A stretch of DNA of 64,000 bases from positions 806,001 to 870,000 of the forward strand of contig NZ_JACBZX010000001.1 of the NCBI RefSeq assembly GCF_013408565.1, given 5' to 3'. Of the stretch, positions 4,944-37,720 are shown piece after piece. The stretch's first letter is position 1. Each line of letters begins with the position of its first letter. Under the pieces are notes generated by a model. It was not told the DNA's origin. It saw nothing but the letters and a program-made list of their open reading frames with translations, and searched no databases. This DNA comes from Janibacter alkaliphilus (GTDB taxonomy: Bacteria; Actinomycetota; Actinomycetes; Actinomycetales; Dermatophilaceae). The position numbers were made by a program, and so were the translations under genes.

Positions 4944-5135
4944 AACTGCCCGGGCAATTCACGTCCCGACGTGTGAGCTGCCCGGGCAGTTGCGGCCTGG
5001 GCGTGCGAATTGCCCGGGCAGTTGCGGCCTGGGCGTGTGATTTGCCCGGGCAGTTGCGGCCTGGGCGTGTGATTTGCCCGGGCAGTTGCGGCCTGGGCGT
5101 GTGAATTGCCCGGGCAGCTGCGGAGGTCGGGGTCG
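4944..5135. repeat. family A palindromic array: six 32-bp units
   Basis: The motif AACTGCCCGGGCAGTT, with small variations, starts at 4944, 4976, 5008, 5040, 5072 and 5104, exactly every 32 bases. In units 2 to 5 the intervening 16 bases are also conserved (GCGGCCTGGGCGTGTG type); unit 1 has a diverged spacer. Each core is a GC-rich self-complementary sequence. The array fills the gap between the convergent ppdK and cyclopropane-synthase genes. Together with the preceding hairpin it accounts for most of the 363-bp gene-free stretch 4775-5137. The spacers are repeats, so this is not a CRISPR array. Confidence 0.85.
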
Positions 5136-5137
5136 GC

Positions 5138-6376
5138 TCAGGGGCGGCGCAGGGTGAGGTGGGCGACGTCGAGGTAGCCGCTGGCGAAGCCGGCCTGGCA
5201 GTAGGCGAGGTAGAACTCCCACATCCGGCGGAACTCCTCGTCGAAGCCGTGCGCGGCGATCTCCGGCCAGCGGGCGAGGAAGGTCTCCCGCCAGCGCCGC
5301 AGCGTCTCGGCGTAGTGCGGGCCGAAGGTCGCCGTCTCGCGCACCCGCAGCGTGGTGTGCCCGGCGGCGACGTCGCGGATCGCCTGCCAGGAGGGGATGA
5401 GCCCGCCGGGGAAGATGTGCTTCTGGATCCAGCCGAAGGAGTTGCGGGTGGCCTGGTAGCGCTCGTGCGCCATGAGGATGGCCTGGATGACGACCGTCCC
5501 GCCCTCGGCGAGCCGCTGGTCGAGGGTGGCGAAGTAGGTCGGCCAGTACTCCTCCCCGACGGCCTCGATCATCTCCACCGAGACGATCGCGTTGTAGCGC
5601 CCGGTCGCCTCGCGATAGTCCTCGATCCGCACGTCGACGCGCTCGCTGAGCCCGGCGGCGTCGATCCGCTCCCGGGCCAGGCTGGCCTGCTCCTGGGAGA
5701 GGGTCACGCTGGTGACCTGCGCGCCGCGCTCGGCGGCGGCGATCGCCAGGGTCCCCCAGCCGGTGCCGATCTCCAGCACCTGGCTGCCCTCGCCGACCGA
5801 GGCGAGGTCGAGGACCCGCTCCACCTTGTGCCGCTGGGCGCTCTCCAGGCTCTGCCCGGACCAGTCGGACCCCTCGTCGAAGAGGGCGCTGGAGTACATC
5901 AGGCTCGGGTCGAGGAAGCGCTCGAAGAGCTCGTTGGACAGGTCGTAGTGCGCCTCGATGTTGCGCCGCGAGCCGAGCAGGGTGTTGCGCTGGCTGGCCG
6001 GGATGGCCCGCTCGACGAGGATCCGGGCCTTGCGCAGCAGCGGCGGGACCGCGGTGGTCATCCGCTCGGCGAAGGGGTGCAGCACGTCGGCCAGGTCGTG
6101 GCCGGGGGCCGGGCGCCACTCGCCGGCCATGTAGGACTCGCCGATCCCGATCTTCGGGTGGTGGGCCAGCCGCTCGAAGGCGGCCACTGGCTCGAGGATC
6201 TCGATGGTCGGCAGGCTCGGGTCGTCGGTGCCGAGCGCGCGGCCGTCCGGGAGGGTGACCCGGACCGGGACGCGGGCCAGCACCCGGCGCAGCACCGCCT
6301 CGGCGAGATAGCGGCGCAGGCACCAGCGCTGCAGGTGGGGTCGGCGCAGGCAGAGCGGTTCGCTGATGGTCGTCAT
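5138..6376 (-). CDS. cyclopropane-fatty-acyl-phospholipid synthase-family methyltransferase
   Basis: 412-residue SAM-dependent enzyme that methylates unsaturated acyl chains of membrane phospholipids. Visible are the CFA-family block HYDLSNELFERFLDP (143-157) and the SAM loop VLEIGTGWGTLAI (200-212). The VEMIEAVGEEYW substrate/bicarbonate region follows. The ATG at 6376 overlaps the DUF1365 stop by ATGA, so this is the last gene of a tightly coupled three-gene operon with an FAD oxidoreductase and DUF1365. In other bacteria the same trio makes modified lipids such as furan or branched fatty acids. Whether the product here is a cyclopropane, a methyl branch or a furan precursor is open. Confidence 0.85.
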   Translation of the reverse strand: MTTISEPLCLRRPHLQRWCLRRYLAEAVLRRVLARVPVRVTLPDGRALGTDDPSLPTIEILEPVAAFERLAHHPKIGIGESYMAGEWRPAPGHDLADVLHPFAERMTTAVPPLLRKARILVERAIPASQRNTLLGSRRNIEAHYDLSNELFERFLDPSLMYSSALFDEGSDWSGQSLESAQRHKVERVLDLASVGEGSQVLEIGTGWGTLAIAAAERGAQVTSVTLSQEQASLARERIDAAGLSERVDVRIEDYREATGRYNAIVSVEMIEAVGEEYWPTYFATLDQRLAEGGTVVIQAILMAHERYQATRNSFGWIQKHIFPGGLIPSWQAIRDVAAGHTTLRVRETATFGPHYAETLRRWRETFLARWPEIAAHGFDEEFRRMWEFYLAYCQAGFASGYLDVAHLTLRRP

Positions 6377-7545
6377 CGCACGGAGTCCTCGGGGTGGTGG
6401 GGTCGTGGGCGGACGGGCAGGCGGCGCAGCCACAGCCACACCCCGTGCGCGCGGATGAGCGCCGAGGTGCGGTAGGAGCCGCCGGGCTGGCGGACCAGCG
6501 TGGCCAGCACCCGGCGCGGGGTGACCGCGTGGGGCCGGCCGGTGACGGTGGCCGTGAAGAGGGGTTCGGTGCTCGGGGCGGAGCGGATGGCCCCGCCCGC
6601 GGGGTCGCGGTCGAGGTCCTCCGGGGTGCCGACCGGGTCACCGGAGGTGGGGGCCGGGTCGCCGGAGGTGGCGGCCGGGTCGTCGTAGGTGGGGGCCGGG
6701 TCGCCGTAGGTGGGGGCCGGGTCGCCGGTGTGCAGCGCGATCGAGACGGTGACCCGCTCCGGGGTCAGCGACGTGCGGATCTCGTAGCGACCCTCGACGT
6801 CGTTGAAGGGCGAGACGTAGAACTCCTTGTCCTGGCTCGAGCGCCCCTGCGCGTCGGGCCGCAGCAGGTAGGCGTGCCGCTCGCCGTAGGTGTTGTGCAC
6901 CTCGGCGACCACCGCGACCACCTGCCGGCCACCCCCTTCGCCGTCCTCGTCCCCCTCCCCTGCAGACCCACCTACCACGCAGTAAGTGCTGTGATCACGA
7001 CACTTACTGCGTGGTAGCTCGGTGCTCTGCGGGGGCTGTGGGTGCTGAAGGGGGTTGTGCGGGGGTGCGGGGTCGCGGAGGACCCACCAGACGCTGAGCG
7101 GGTTGAAGGCGTAGCCGGCCACCCGGGGCTGGGCGAGCAGCAGCACCTGGTCCTCGGGGGCGAGCTCGACCCCGCGCCGGTGCAGCCAGCGCTCCAGGTC
7201 ACCGCGCAGCCCGCCGCCGAGCCGGCCGGCGTCGAGGTGGTCGGCCGCACGCAGCCGCAGCGCCCGCCCGAGCACCGCGCCGAGTCGCCCGGGCACGGTC
7301 TGCGGCTCGCGCCGCCCCGCCGGCACCTCCACCAGCCAGGCGTGGTGCCGGTTGCGGAAGCGGTGCCGCAGCGGCCGGGCGCGGTCGTGCACGACGTGCC
7401 CGACGACGAGCGCGGGCAGCGCTGGCGGGGTCGCGACGAGGGTCGACGCCGCTGCGACGTCTGCCTCCGCCGACGCACCGGCCCCGGTGGACGCACCCTC
7501 CCCCACCGGTGCACCAGCCTCCGCGGGTACCGCGCCCGCGCTCAC
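6373..7545 (-). CDS. DUF1365 family protein, enlarged by repeat insertions
   Basis: DUF1365 proteins always travel with a CFA-like methylase and an FAD amine-oxidase-like protein and are thought to act in lipid modification; the reaction is unknown. Family blocks present are VVGHVVHDRARPLRHRFRNR, YAFNPLSVWWV, EVHNTYGERHAYLL and KEFYVSPFNDVEGRYEI. At 390 residues it is much longer than the usual 240-280. Two insertions explain this: a linker after NPLSVWW holding a 46-bp family B palindrome read in frame (about residues 177-192), and a GDPAPTY-type heptad repeat (about 276-304). The GTG start at 7545 overlaps the upstream stop by GTGA, which fixes it. The frame stays open through both insertions, so the gene is probably functional. 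Confidence 0.85.
   Translation of the reverse strand: MSAGAVPAEAGAPVGEGASTGAGASAEADVAAASTLVATPPALPALVVGHVVHDRARPLRHRFRNRHHAWLVEVPAGRREPQTVPGRLGAVLGRALRLRAADHLDAGRLGGGLRGDLERWLHRRGVELAPEDQVLLLAQPRVAGYAFNPLSVWWVLRDPAPPHNPLQHPQPPQSTELPRSKCRDHSTYCVVGGSAGEGDEDGEGGGRQVVAVVAEVHNTYGERHAYLLRPDAQGRSSQDKEFYVSPFNDVEGRYEIRTSLTPERVTVSIALHTGDPAPTYGDPAPTYDDPAATSGDPAPTSGDPVGTPEDLDRDPAGGAIRSAPSTEPLFTATVTGRPHAVTPRRVLATLVRQPGGSYRTSALIRAHGVWLWLRRLPVRPRPHHPEDSVR
6635..6718 (-). repeat. 21-bp minisatellite, four units, inside the DUF1365 gene
   Basis: Units begin at 6635, 6656, 6677 and 6698 with pattern GGGTC-CCG-AGGTGGGGGCC, followed by a partial unit. Because 21 is a multiple of three, the array encodes heptapeptides of the GDPAPTY/GDPAPTS type without breaking the frame. 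The copy number is likely variable between strains. Confidence 0.85.
6972..7017 (-). repeat. family B palindromic element, copy 1 (in frame inside a gene)
   Basis: Perfect 17-bp arms CTACCACGCAGTAAGTG (6972-6988) and its complement (7001-7017) flank a 12-base centre containing GTGATCAC. It lies wholly within the DUF1365 coding sequence and is read there as LPRSKCRDHSTYCVV, with no stop codon. Other copies are at 30092 and 37675. Confidence 0.9.
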
Positions 7546-8843
7546 CAGGTCGCCCCGAAGTGTCGCGCCGCCGCCACCCCGGAGCGGCAGCCGTCCTCGT
7601 GGAAGCCCCACCCGTGGTGCGCCCCGGCGTAGGCGGTGCGCTCGTCGGCGAGCTCGGGCAGCCGGCGCTGCGCGCGCAGCGCGGGCCCGTCGTAGACCGG
7701 GTGGGTGTAGTCCATCCGCGCGAGCACCCGCGACGCGTCGATGAGGTGCTCGCCGTTGAGGGTGACGAGGAAGGGGGTCTTCTCCTCGATCGCGTGCAGC
7801 TGGTTCATCCAGTAGGTCACCACCGGCGGGGTGTCGTCGCCGGGCGGCGGCACCCGGTAGTTCCAGCTCGCCCGGGCCGCGGTCGCGCTCGGCAGGATCG
7901 AGGTGTCGGTGTGCAGCACCGCCCGGTTCGGGGTGTAGCGGAAGGCGCCGAGCACCTCCTTCTCGGCGGCGCTCGGGTCGGCGAGCATCGCCAGCGCCTC
8001 GTCCGCGTGGGTGGCCACGACCACCCGGTCGTGGGCGTGCGTGCGGCCGTCGGCGAGGGTGAGGCTGACCCCGCCGCCCGCGGGACGGGTCAGCGACGCC
8101 ACCGGCGAACCGGTGACGACGCGGGCCCCGGCGCCCTCGAGAGCGCCGCGTACGGCGTCGACGTAGGTCCGCGAGCCGCCATCGACGGTGTACCACTGCG
8201 GGGAGCCGGTGACGGTGAGCATCCCGTGGTTCTCGAGGAAGGCGAAGAGGCTGCGCGCCGGGTAGTCCCGGGCGGTGCGCGCCCCGGCGGACCAGACGCA
8301 GGCGACCAGCGGCATCGCGTACCAGCGGACGAGGTCGTCGCCGAAGCGGTGGCGCTCCAGCCAGGCACCGAAGGGGGTGTCGTCGTCCTCGGCGGCCTCG
8401 GCGAGGTGGGCGGTGGCCAGCCGGTGGAAGCGCCGGATCCCGGTGAGCATCCGCAGGAAGCGGGGGTCGGCCGCCCGGCGCGGCTGGGCGAAGACCCCCT
8501 TCAGCCCGGCGCCGCCGGCCCACTCCAGCCCCTCGTCGGCGACGGTCATGCTCATCGACATGATCGTCCTGCGCCGGGGGACGTCGAGCTCGGCGAAGAG
8601 TCGCAGCAGGTGCGGGTAGGTGCGCTCGTTGTGCACGATGAAGCCGGAGTCGATGCGGCGCGGCACCCCGCCGGTGCCGGTGACGTCGTGGGTATGGGCG
8701 TGCCCGCCCAGCCGGGCCTGGCCCTCGTAGAGGGTGACCTCGTCCTGCTCGCGCAGCAGGTAGGCCGCGGTCAGCCCGGAGACGCCCGCGCCGATCACCG
8801 CGGTCCGCCGGCGCGATGTCGGTGAGGGGGAGCTGTCGGTCAC
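7542..8843 (-). CDS. FAD-dependent amine oxidase-like oxidoreductase
   Basis: 433-residue flavoprotein with an N-terminal dinucleotide fold, AVIGAGVSGLTAAYLL (15-30), then the flavin amine-oxidase/desaturase fold (DSGFIVHNERTYPHLLRLF, VATHADEALAML). In the DUF1365-CFA neighbourhood such proteins oxidise or desaturate acyl chains before or after methylation. The GTG start at 8843 has an AGGA box eight bases upstream. It is the first gene of the operon; its stop overlaps the DUF1365 GTG. A dyad and a GATACT hexamer just upstream suggest a controlled promoter. The exact substrate is not deducible. Confidence 0.82.
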   Translation of the reverse strand: MTDSSPSPTSRRRTAVIGAGVSGLTAAYLLREQDEVTLYEGQARLGGHAHTHDVTGTGGVPRRIDSGFIVHNERTYPHLLRLFAELDVPRRRTIMSMSMTVADEGLEWAGGAGLKGVFAQPRRAADPRFLRMLTGIRRFHRLATAHLAEAAEDDDTPFGAWLERHRFGDDLVRWYAMPLVACVWSAGARTARDYPARSLFAFLENHGMLTVTGSPQWYTVDGGSRTYVDAVRGALEGAGARVVTGSPVASLTRPAGGGVSLTLADGRTHAHDRVVVATHADEALAMLADPSAAEKEVLGAFRYTPNRAVLHTDTSILPSATAARASWNYRVPPPGDDTPPVVTYWMNQLHAIEEKTPFLVTLNGEHLIDASRVLARMDYTHPVYDGPALRAQRRLPELADERTAYAGAHHGWGFHEDGCRSGVAAARHFGATW

Positions 8844-8866
8844 GCCACGTCCTGTCGTCGTCCTGG

Positions 8867-8915
8867 TGCCCAGGCGGTGCCACCTGGGCAGACAGTATCG
8901 ACCGGAGCGCTCCGG
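8867..8915 (-). promoter_or_regulatory. candidate promoter and operator of the lipid-modification operon
   Basis: On the minus strand a GATACT hexamer (8899-8894) could be the -10 box. Just downstream, covering the likely start point, is the inverted repeat TGCCCAGG-N8-CCTGGGCA (8867-8890). Just upstream is the 14-bp palindrome CCGGAGCGCTCCGG (8902-8915). The arrangement suggests two protein-binding sites flanking the promoter; no adjacent regulator gene is obvious. Confidence 0.4.
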
Positions 8916-9025
8916 CCGGTACCTGAGGGCTTCGGCGCCCTCGCCCGTGCGGATGGGAGGACTCGGCGCCGGGTGCCTCCGGGCACCGACAGACCTCGCT
9001 CAGGACCCGCCGGTTCGACTCGAGC

Positions 9026-19417: not shown

Positions 19418-19502
19418 CGTCAACTGCCCGGGCAGTTGACGCAGAAGGGGTGAAAACTGCCCGGGCAGTTGCGGGCGGTGGGGCGAAACTGCCCGGGCAG
19501 TT
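19418..19502. repeat. family A palindromic array: three units
   Basis: Exact copies of AACTGCCCGGGCAGTT start at 19422, 19455 and 19487, that is at 33- and 32-base spacing. The first is extended to a 24-bp perfect palindrome (19418-19441). The array fills the gap between the convergent SRPBCC and SDR genes, the same setting as the array at 4944-5135. Confidence 0.85.
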
Positions 19503-30091: not shown

Positions 30092-30137
30092 CTACCACGC
30101 AGTAAGTGCTGTGATCGCGACACGTACTGCGTGGTAG
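30092..30137. repeat. family B palindromic element, copy 2
   Basis: 46-bp palindrome with left arm CTACCACGCAGTAAGTG identical to copy 1 and right arm differing by one base. The centre CTGTGATCGCGA has the same orientation as copy 1. It lies between the convergent sortase and cupin genes, where it could terminate both. Confidence 0.9.
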
Positions 30138-37674: not shown

Positions 37675-37720
37675 CTACCACGCAGTAAGTGTCGTGATCA
37701 CAGCACTTACTGCGTGGTAG
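37675..37720. repeat. family B palindromic element, copy 3 (inverted orientation)
   Basis: 46-bp palindrome with 17-bp arms identical to copy 1. The 12-base centre is the reverse complement of that in copy 1, so this copy is inserted the other way round. It lies between the convergent TPR and fumarase genes. Confidence 0.9.

Follow-up and report, generated by a model that had tools for sequence, protein, structure and literature searches.

A dispersed palindrome inside protein genes of Janibacter and its relatives, and its linkage to an AbiEi-Vsr fusion gene

A 64,000-nucleotide stretch of the Janibacter alkaliphilus genome (contig NZ_JACBZX010000001.1, positions 806,001 to 870,000; the whole stretch is called the window below) contains a 46-bp palindrome within a gene of the DUF1365 family. 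The palindrome belongs to a family which is dispersed through this genome, shows covariation in its hairpin, forms in-frame inserts that are absent from relatives of the host proteins, and is linked to a gene for a predicted fusion of an AbiEi-like protein and a Vsr-like endonuclease (the AbiEi-Vsr gene). We incline, if only by a little, to the view that it is a non-autonomous mobile hairpin of a system like the REPtrons, which consist of a transposase gene and repetitive extragenic palindromic (REP) sequences, in the bacterial family to which Janibacter and Phycicoccus belong. The AbiEi-Vsr protein would be the likeliest mobiliser of the palindromes, the main rival reading being that it binds but does not move them. 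Evenly balanced, in our judgement, is the wider claim of a new class of mobile system, in which a toxin-antitoxin regulator fused to a homing-type (Vsr/EDxHD) endonuclease domain has turned REP mobiliser, independently in origin of the REP-associated tyrosine transposases (RAYTs), and in which the moving hairpins seed in-frame peptides in host proteins.

A palindrome family with compensatory changes

The 46-bp palindrome which the original prediction had placed in the DUF1365 gene is present there (window positions 6972 to 7017), with 17-bp arms and a 12-bp centre containing TGATCA. Two near-identical intergenic copies claimed along with it were found as well, each between convergent genes (30092–30137, with one arm mismatch, and 37675–37720); arm matches in the window number six, compared with a mean of 0.05 in shuffled sequences. 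The genome as a whole, however, holds not three but 44 copies in 3.32 Mb (up to three mismatches), a reversed control pattern giving none. When genes were called by codon usage, with the window as training sequence, 43 of these proved intergenic (10 between convergent, 6 between divergent and 27 between tandem genes), and only the DUF1365 copy fell inside a gene. This copy is among the 19 that have an identical core on either strand. The motif CCCCTTC occurs within 80 bp to the left of 25 copies and GAAGGGG to the right of 18, while the opposite arrangement is rare (GAAGGGG left in two, CCCCTTC right in one).

The family has the form CTAC-N4-CNGTA...TACNG-N4-GTAG with a length of 46. Over 88 distinct cores, 93.5% of the stem cells are paired, and changes on both sides were counted in 200 stem cells, as compared with 95.8 (SD 10) after shuffling and 12–34 with slid partners. 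This is strong compensatory change across the family. CTAC pairs with GTAG in all 88 distinct rows, one of them gapped at the end base, both blocks having been fixed in the search pattern; outside the fixed blocks, G17 is constant and G20 nearly so. The outer arms differ between lineages and yet pair, and most of the dispersed copies listed within a genome share them. No strong covariation was seen in the immediate flanks of the J. alkaliphilus copies: own pairing clearly exceeds cross pairing only at positions 1, 2, 6, 17 and 37, and is below it at some others, e.g. position 3. Comparison of window positions 5000–9000 with Rfam gave nothing credible, the best match, to a microRNA model, reaching 24.8 bits where the cut-off is 86.

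Occurrence is patchy. The form was found, with up to three mismatches, in 24 of 186 genomes of the bacterial family (control 0) and in one of 16 within the genus; it is absent from all 15 congeners. A strict 40-base pattern had no match in the genome contigs of a collection in which each species is represented by one genome. A degenerate pattern, applied to this collection with J. alkaliphilus excluded, returned 74 stretches from Phycicoccus, Marihabitans, Janibacter melonis and one metagenome-assembled genome (MAG) labelled Micrococcales. Among the 77 copies in these stretches, tandem gene pairs account for 36, convergent pairs for 31 and divergent pairs for 4; another 4 are at edges, and 2 lie within genes.

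Convergent pairs thus outnumber divergent ones by 31 to 4 in these relatives, and by 16 to 2 in a second set that overlaps the first in part. The excess fits promoter avoidance or some secondary function where genes end, and together with the very stable folds it might be taken to mean that the palindromes are bidirectional terminators, or RNA hairpins, which selection has spread to the ends of genes. We regard this as very unlikely. In J. alkaliphilus itself the numbers are only 10 to 6, which is not significant, and at two of the three window copies (those scanned) there was no terminator-like match; a terminator is not expected within a gene for PrmC or DUF1365, and it is the sequence that is conserved, beyond structure alone.

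Some irregularities were noted among the J. alkaliphilus copies. Partial copies (CTGCGTGGTAG) adjoin full palindromes in the right flanks at contig positions 206578 and 1353235, and the left arm shows short tandem duplications at 419893, 1605031 and 2091425. Across the contig ends, between 2611417 and 756, about 712 kb are devoid of the palindrome; a largest gap of this size occurred in 24 of 20 000 simulations.

The linked AbiEi-Vsr gene

Two copies enclose a gene of 329 residues (contig positions 2129508–2130497), one lying 8 bp past the stop codon and the other 119 bp before the called start. The genome has a single copy of this gene. From fold search and Vsr alignment, its product is predicted to join an AbiEi-like protein to an endonuclease domain that resembles Vsr and I-Bth0305I and has the Vsr active-site residues. 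The predicted fold and active-site residues match the EDxHD/Vsr endonucleases, with H256 and H261 aligned to H64 and H69 of Vsr, in an alignment with a weak score (E 0.11); when solved structures were searched by sequence with this protein as query (A2), nothing matched at E ≤ 1. The C-terminal motif AVMVHS had been considered as a lost PD-(D/E)XK site, an assignment dropped in favour of the fit of the two histidines to Vsr.

Homologues in Phycicoccus elongatus and in the MAG are likewise enclosed by palindromes, and that of J. melonis has one adjoining copy. When up to 11 candidates per genome were scored in the 186 genomes, 58 contained a homologue at E ≤ 1e-20. A long palindrome was present within 450 bp at 18 of the 30 homologue loci returned (p 2e-16 under an assumed 5% chance per gene) and on both sides at six; 15 of the 18 have a GTGATCAC-like centre, one (L199) is a variant, and two (L207 and L218) are other kinds of hairpin. 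With the four discovery loci excluded, the numbers are 14/26 with a palindrome, 5/26 on both sides and 12/26 GTGATCAC-like. None was found at control loci (0/26, 0/27 and 0/8, 0/61 in total), the set of eight being the only one drawn wholly from palindrome-bearing genomes. Protein and palindrome also co-occur (15/24 versus 43/162, p 0.0007, relatedness being ignored in this comparison).

The position of the AbiEi-Vsr gene varies by lineage. In J. alkaliphilus it is the sole gene called between two genes that, judged from sequence, are presumably rseP and ispG, and no AbiEii toxin partner stands beside it at this locus. The two neighbours are 1339 bp apart, in contrast to 32–292 bp in all 15 congeners (distances by tblastn; an rseP match was obtained in 25 of 27 relatives and none in two). 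In L259, from another bacterial family, the gap is 1288 bp and contains no homologue. In the MAG (L140:4549-4594), the AbiEi-like gene runs into a palindrome, which overlaps the stop codon and half of which codes for the last residues. Palindrome pairs round other genes (J. alkaliphilus 2438361–2439368 and two in P. jejuensis, L148) were considered as further units and rejected, as the enclosed genes appear dissimilar by eye.

Taken together, these data suggest a unit in which the AbiEi-Vsr fusion gene stands between two cognate palindromes, and lone palindrome copies, nearly all intergenic, scattered through the genome. Recognition of the 46-bp site, fixed in length, would fall to the AbiEi half, which would probably act as a dimer, and the Vsr-like domain may nick or cut the palindrome or the target. 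Repair or hairpin copying could then leave a new palindrome copy. Insertions in genes would persist only in a linker, with the single open frame in use and a total length that is a multiple of three.

Binding need not imply movement. The promoter of an AbiEi antitoxin gene carries inverted repeats to which the antitoxin itself binds, and the fixed length of 46 bp, the constant G17 and the near-constant G20 are as protein contacts would produce. The palindromes might therefore be binding sites of the AbiEi-like protein, kept by selection for autoregulation, chromosome organisation or regulation, and not moved by the protein. We consider this alternative possible but doubtful: copies occur inside protein genes, at unrelated loci and between convergent genes, the occurrence in the genus is restricted to the one genome mentioned, and binding does not call for a nuclease-like domain whose active-site positions are conserved.

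Two observations weigh against mobilisation by the AbiEi-Vsr protein. Twelve of the 30 homologue loci have no palindrome nearby, and one genome (G120) has 24 near-identical copies and no homologue at E ≤ 1e-20. From shared unusual cores this genome is probably that of Marihabitans asiaticum; its mobiliser may have been lost, or another one may be at work. The same genome favours a further explanation, in which the palindromes resemble miniature inverted-repeat transposable elements (MITEs), having been left behind by an ordinary insertion sequence or being moved by another recombinase, with the AbiEi-Vsr gene as passenger or preferred target. In-frame MITE fusions are indeed known (PMC2229807). 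We nevertheless judge this explanation unlikely, given the palindromes near 18 of 30 homologue loci, their presence on both sides at six, the GTGATCAC-like centres at 15 and the lineage-specific arms. Further, a search confined to the Y1 transposases (PF01797) gave no match in J. alkaliphilus, while five of 14 control genomes had one; an RAYT as mobiliser was rejected on this result.

Palindromes inside protein genes

The original prediction that the palindrome lies in frame within a DUF1365 gene is borne out by an open frame on the minus strand (6373–7560, the start codon being uncertain between 7506 and 7560) with a Pfam match at E 2.4e-51. In this frame the palindrome is translated as LPRSKCRDHSTYCVV, free of stops as had been claimed. 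The claimed gain of about 16 residues was too small: the protein has about 47 surplus residues between NPLSVWWVL and EVHNTYG, two motifs normally close together, and none of the 21 aligned relatives has them (26 loci were tried; 21 gave a usable gene and five were dropped). A congener reads ‘WCLAPDGSLRACIFEVHNTYG’ where the J. alkaliphilus protein has ‘WVLR’, the surplus residues and ‘RQVVAVVAEVHNTYG’. The segment extends approximately over 6928–7074 on the minus strand (47 codons according to the alignment and 49 according to the motif, the ends being uncertain by a few codons). Its length of about 141 bp is three times that of the palindrome, and it consists of the core together with C-rich and G-rich arms which pair outside the 46 bp, so that the whole folds as one long hairpin (DNA fold −46.3 kcal/mol, z −6.8). 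Close relatives do not share these residues, as the segment is missing from all 21 of them and the palindrome from all 15 congeners. The alignment thus supports an in-frame insertion of a dispersed palindrome into a linker within a conserved protein.

The protein has another expansion (6583–6726), which measures about 50 residues and contains 21-bp tandem repeats; it is also absent from the 21 relatives and looks unrelated to the palindrome. Two such expansions might indicate a decaying pseudogene, in which an insert would tell nothing about tolerance. This is hardly credible, since the frame is open with coding-like codon use, conserved stretches flank both inserts, and an insert in prmC is common to proteins of 98, 78 and 67% identity, so that such inserts can last.

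The two gene-embedded copies in relatives lie in prmC of P. elongatus and in a glycosyltransferase family 4 (GT4) gene of M. asiaticum. All three gene copies use one and the same frame (LPRSKCRDHSTYCVV, LRRSNCGPGDAYCDV and LPRSSGRDHDHYCAV), and each has stops in both other frames. The prmC insert is present in three of 37 aligned homologues, namely those named above, and absent in 34; palindrome-coded residues of the glycosyltransferase were found in three of 36, perhaps as a remnant in one more, and not in 32 (in each case aligned from 120 listed proteins). Comparison of P0073 with P0076, made at the protein level only, gives a PrmC insert of 16 residues or 48 bp, i.e. 46 + 2, the relatives being too diverged for a target-site duplication to be recognised. 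The corresponding DNA stretch is longest in P. elongatus, at 207 bp; two congeners have 123 bp, and in five other genomes it measures 111 bp. No gene insert was seen among 37 further copies from eight genomes, a number that includes some J. melonis copies counted before. As the frames are open and the prmC insert is common to homologues, we infer that in-frame inserts are tolerated in all three proteins.

The DUF1365 gene is adjoined on the same strand by genes for an FAD/amine oxidoreductase (7542–8843) and a cyclopropane synthase-like methyltransferase (5138–6439), presumably in one operon. Another repeat found between genes, at 4947–5116 and 19425–19499 of the window, has TGCCCGGGCA palindromes, which are arranged in part as 32-bp tandem arrays. 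All nine TGCCCGGGCA repeats in the window are intergenic, as are 30 of 31 in other, partly overlapping stretches of the genome.

Comparison with known systems

To our knowledge, the dedicated mobilisers of REP-like palindromes are HUH transposases, the RAYTs. New here are the palindromes flanking an AbiEi-Vsr fusion gene. A search of titles and abstracts, from which subscription papers and bioRxiv are mostly excluded, revealed neither a link of AbiEi-like or Vsr-like proteins to dispersed palindromes nor a protein-embedded palindrome in actinobacteria. The original prediction had named Rickettsia as the precedent and knew of none in this kind of actinobacterium; the latter part agrees with this search, while the comparison with Rickettsia alone was too narrow, since REPs occur inside genes of several species (PMC3733652). 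The same source describes CGTC REPs apparently without a dedicated mobiliser. If our interpretation is true, a second, unrelated nuclease travels with its own palindromes, the REP-like lifestyle arose twice, and a testable mobiliser is at hand. AbiEi-like proteins, now annotated as antitoxins or hypothetical proteins, might have a role beyond toxin control. Protein-embedded palindromes in these actinobacteria, one of them common to proteins down to 67% identity, suggest that such inserts are no quirk of reduced intracellular genomes.

The fusion differs from AbiEi of the AbiE type IV toxin-antitoxin system by having no partner gene between rseP and ispG and an extra endonuclease-like domain. 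From Vsr and the EDxHD homing endonuclease I-Bth0305I it is distinguished by the AbiEi-like half and the flanking palindromes; no intron was seen at the locus, though introns were not searched for. I-Bth0305I dimerises on nearly 60 bp (PMC3943268), a footprint which by analogy would be in keeping with a long palindromic site.

Rickettsia palindromic elements (RPEs) are hairpins of 105–146 bp found between genes and in frame within them, conserved enzymes included (PMC2229807), and the palindrome described here shares these sites and, with about 141 bp, the length. It differs in the phylum, in having only three gene inserts among the copies examined and in being linked to a candidate mobiliser, the comparison being one of sites, length and setting.

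The likeness is closest to the REPtron, a Y1 HUH transposase (RAYT) with GTAG REPs, in which the gene stands between cognate palindromes, dispersed copies are mostly intergenic and compensatory changes occur (PMC2817692). All these traits recur here, and the AbiEi-Vsr gene of J. alkaliphilus is single with a palindrome on both sides. In contrast to the REPtron, the present system has an AbiEi protein with a Vsr/EDxHD-like endonuclease domain unrelated to HUH/Y1. Its GTAG lies within a symmetric stem with CTAC at the opposite end, whereas that of REPs is a one-sided tag outside the stem, and its palindrome is actinobacterial and of a fixed length of 46 bp.
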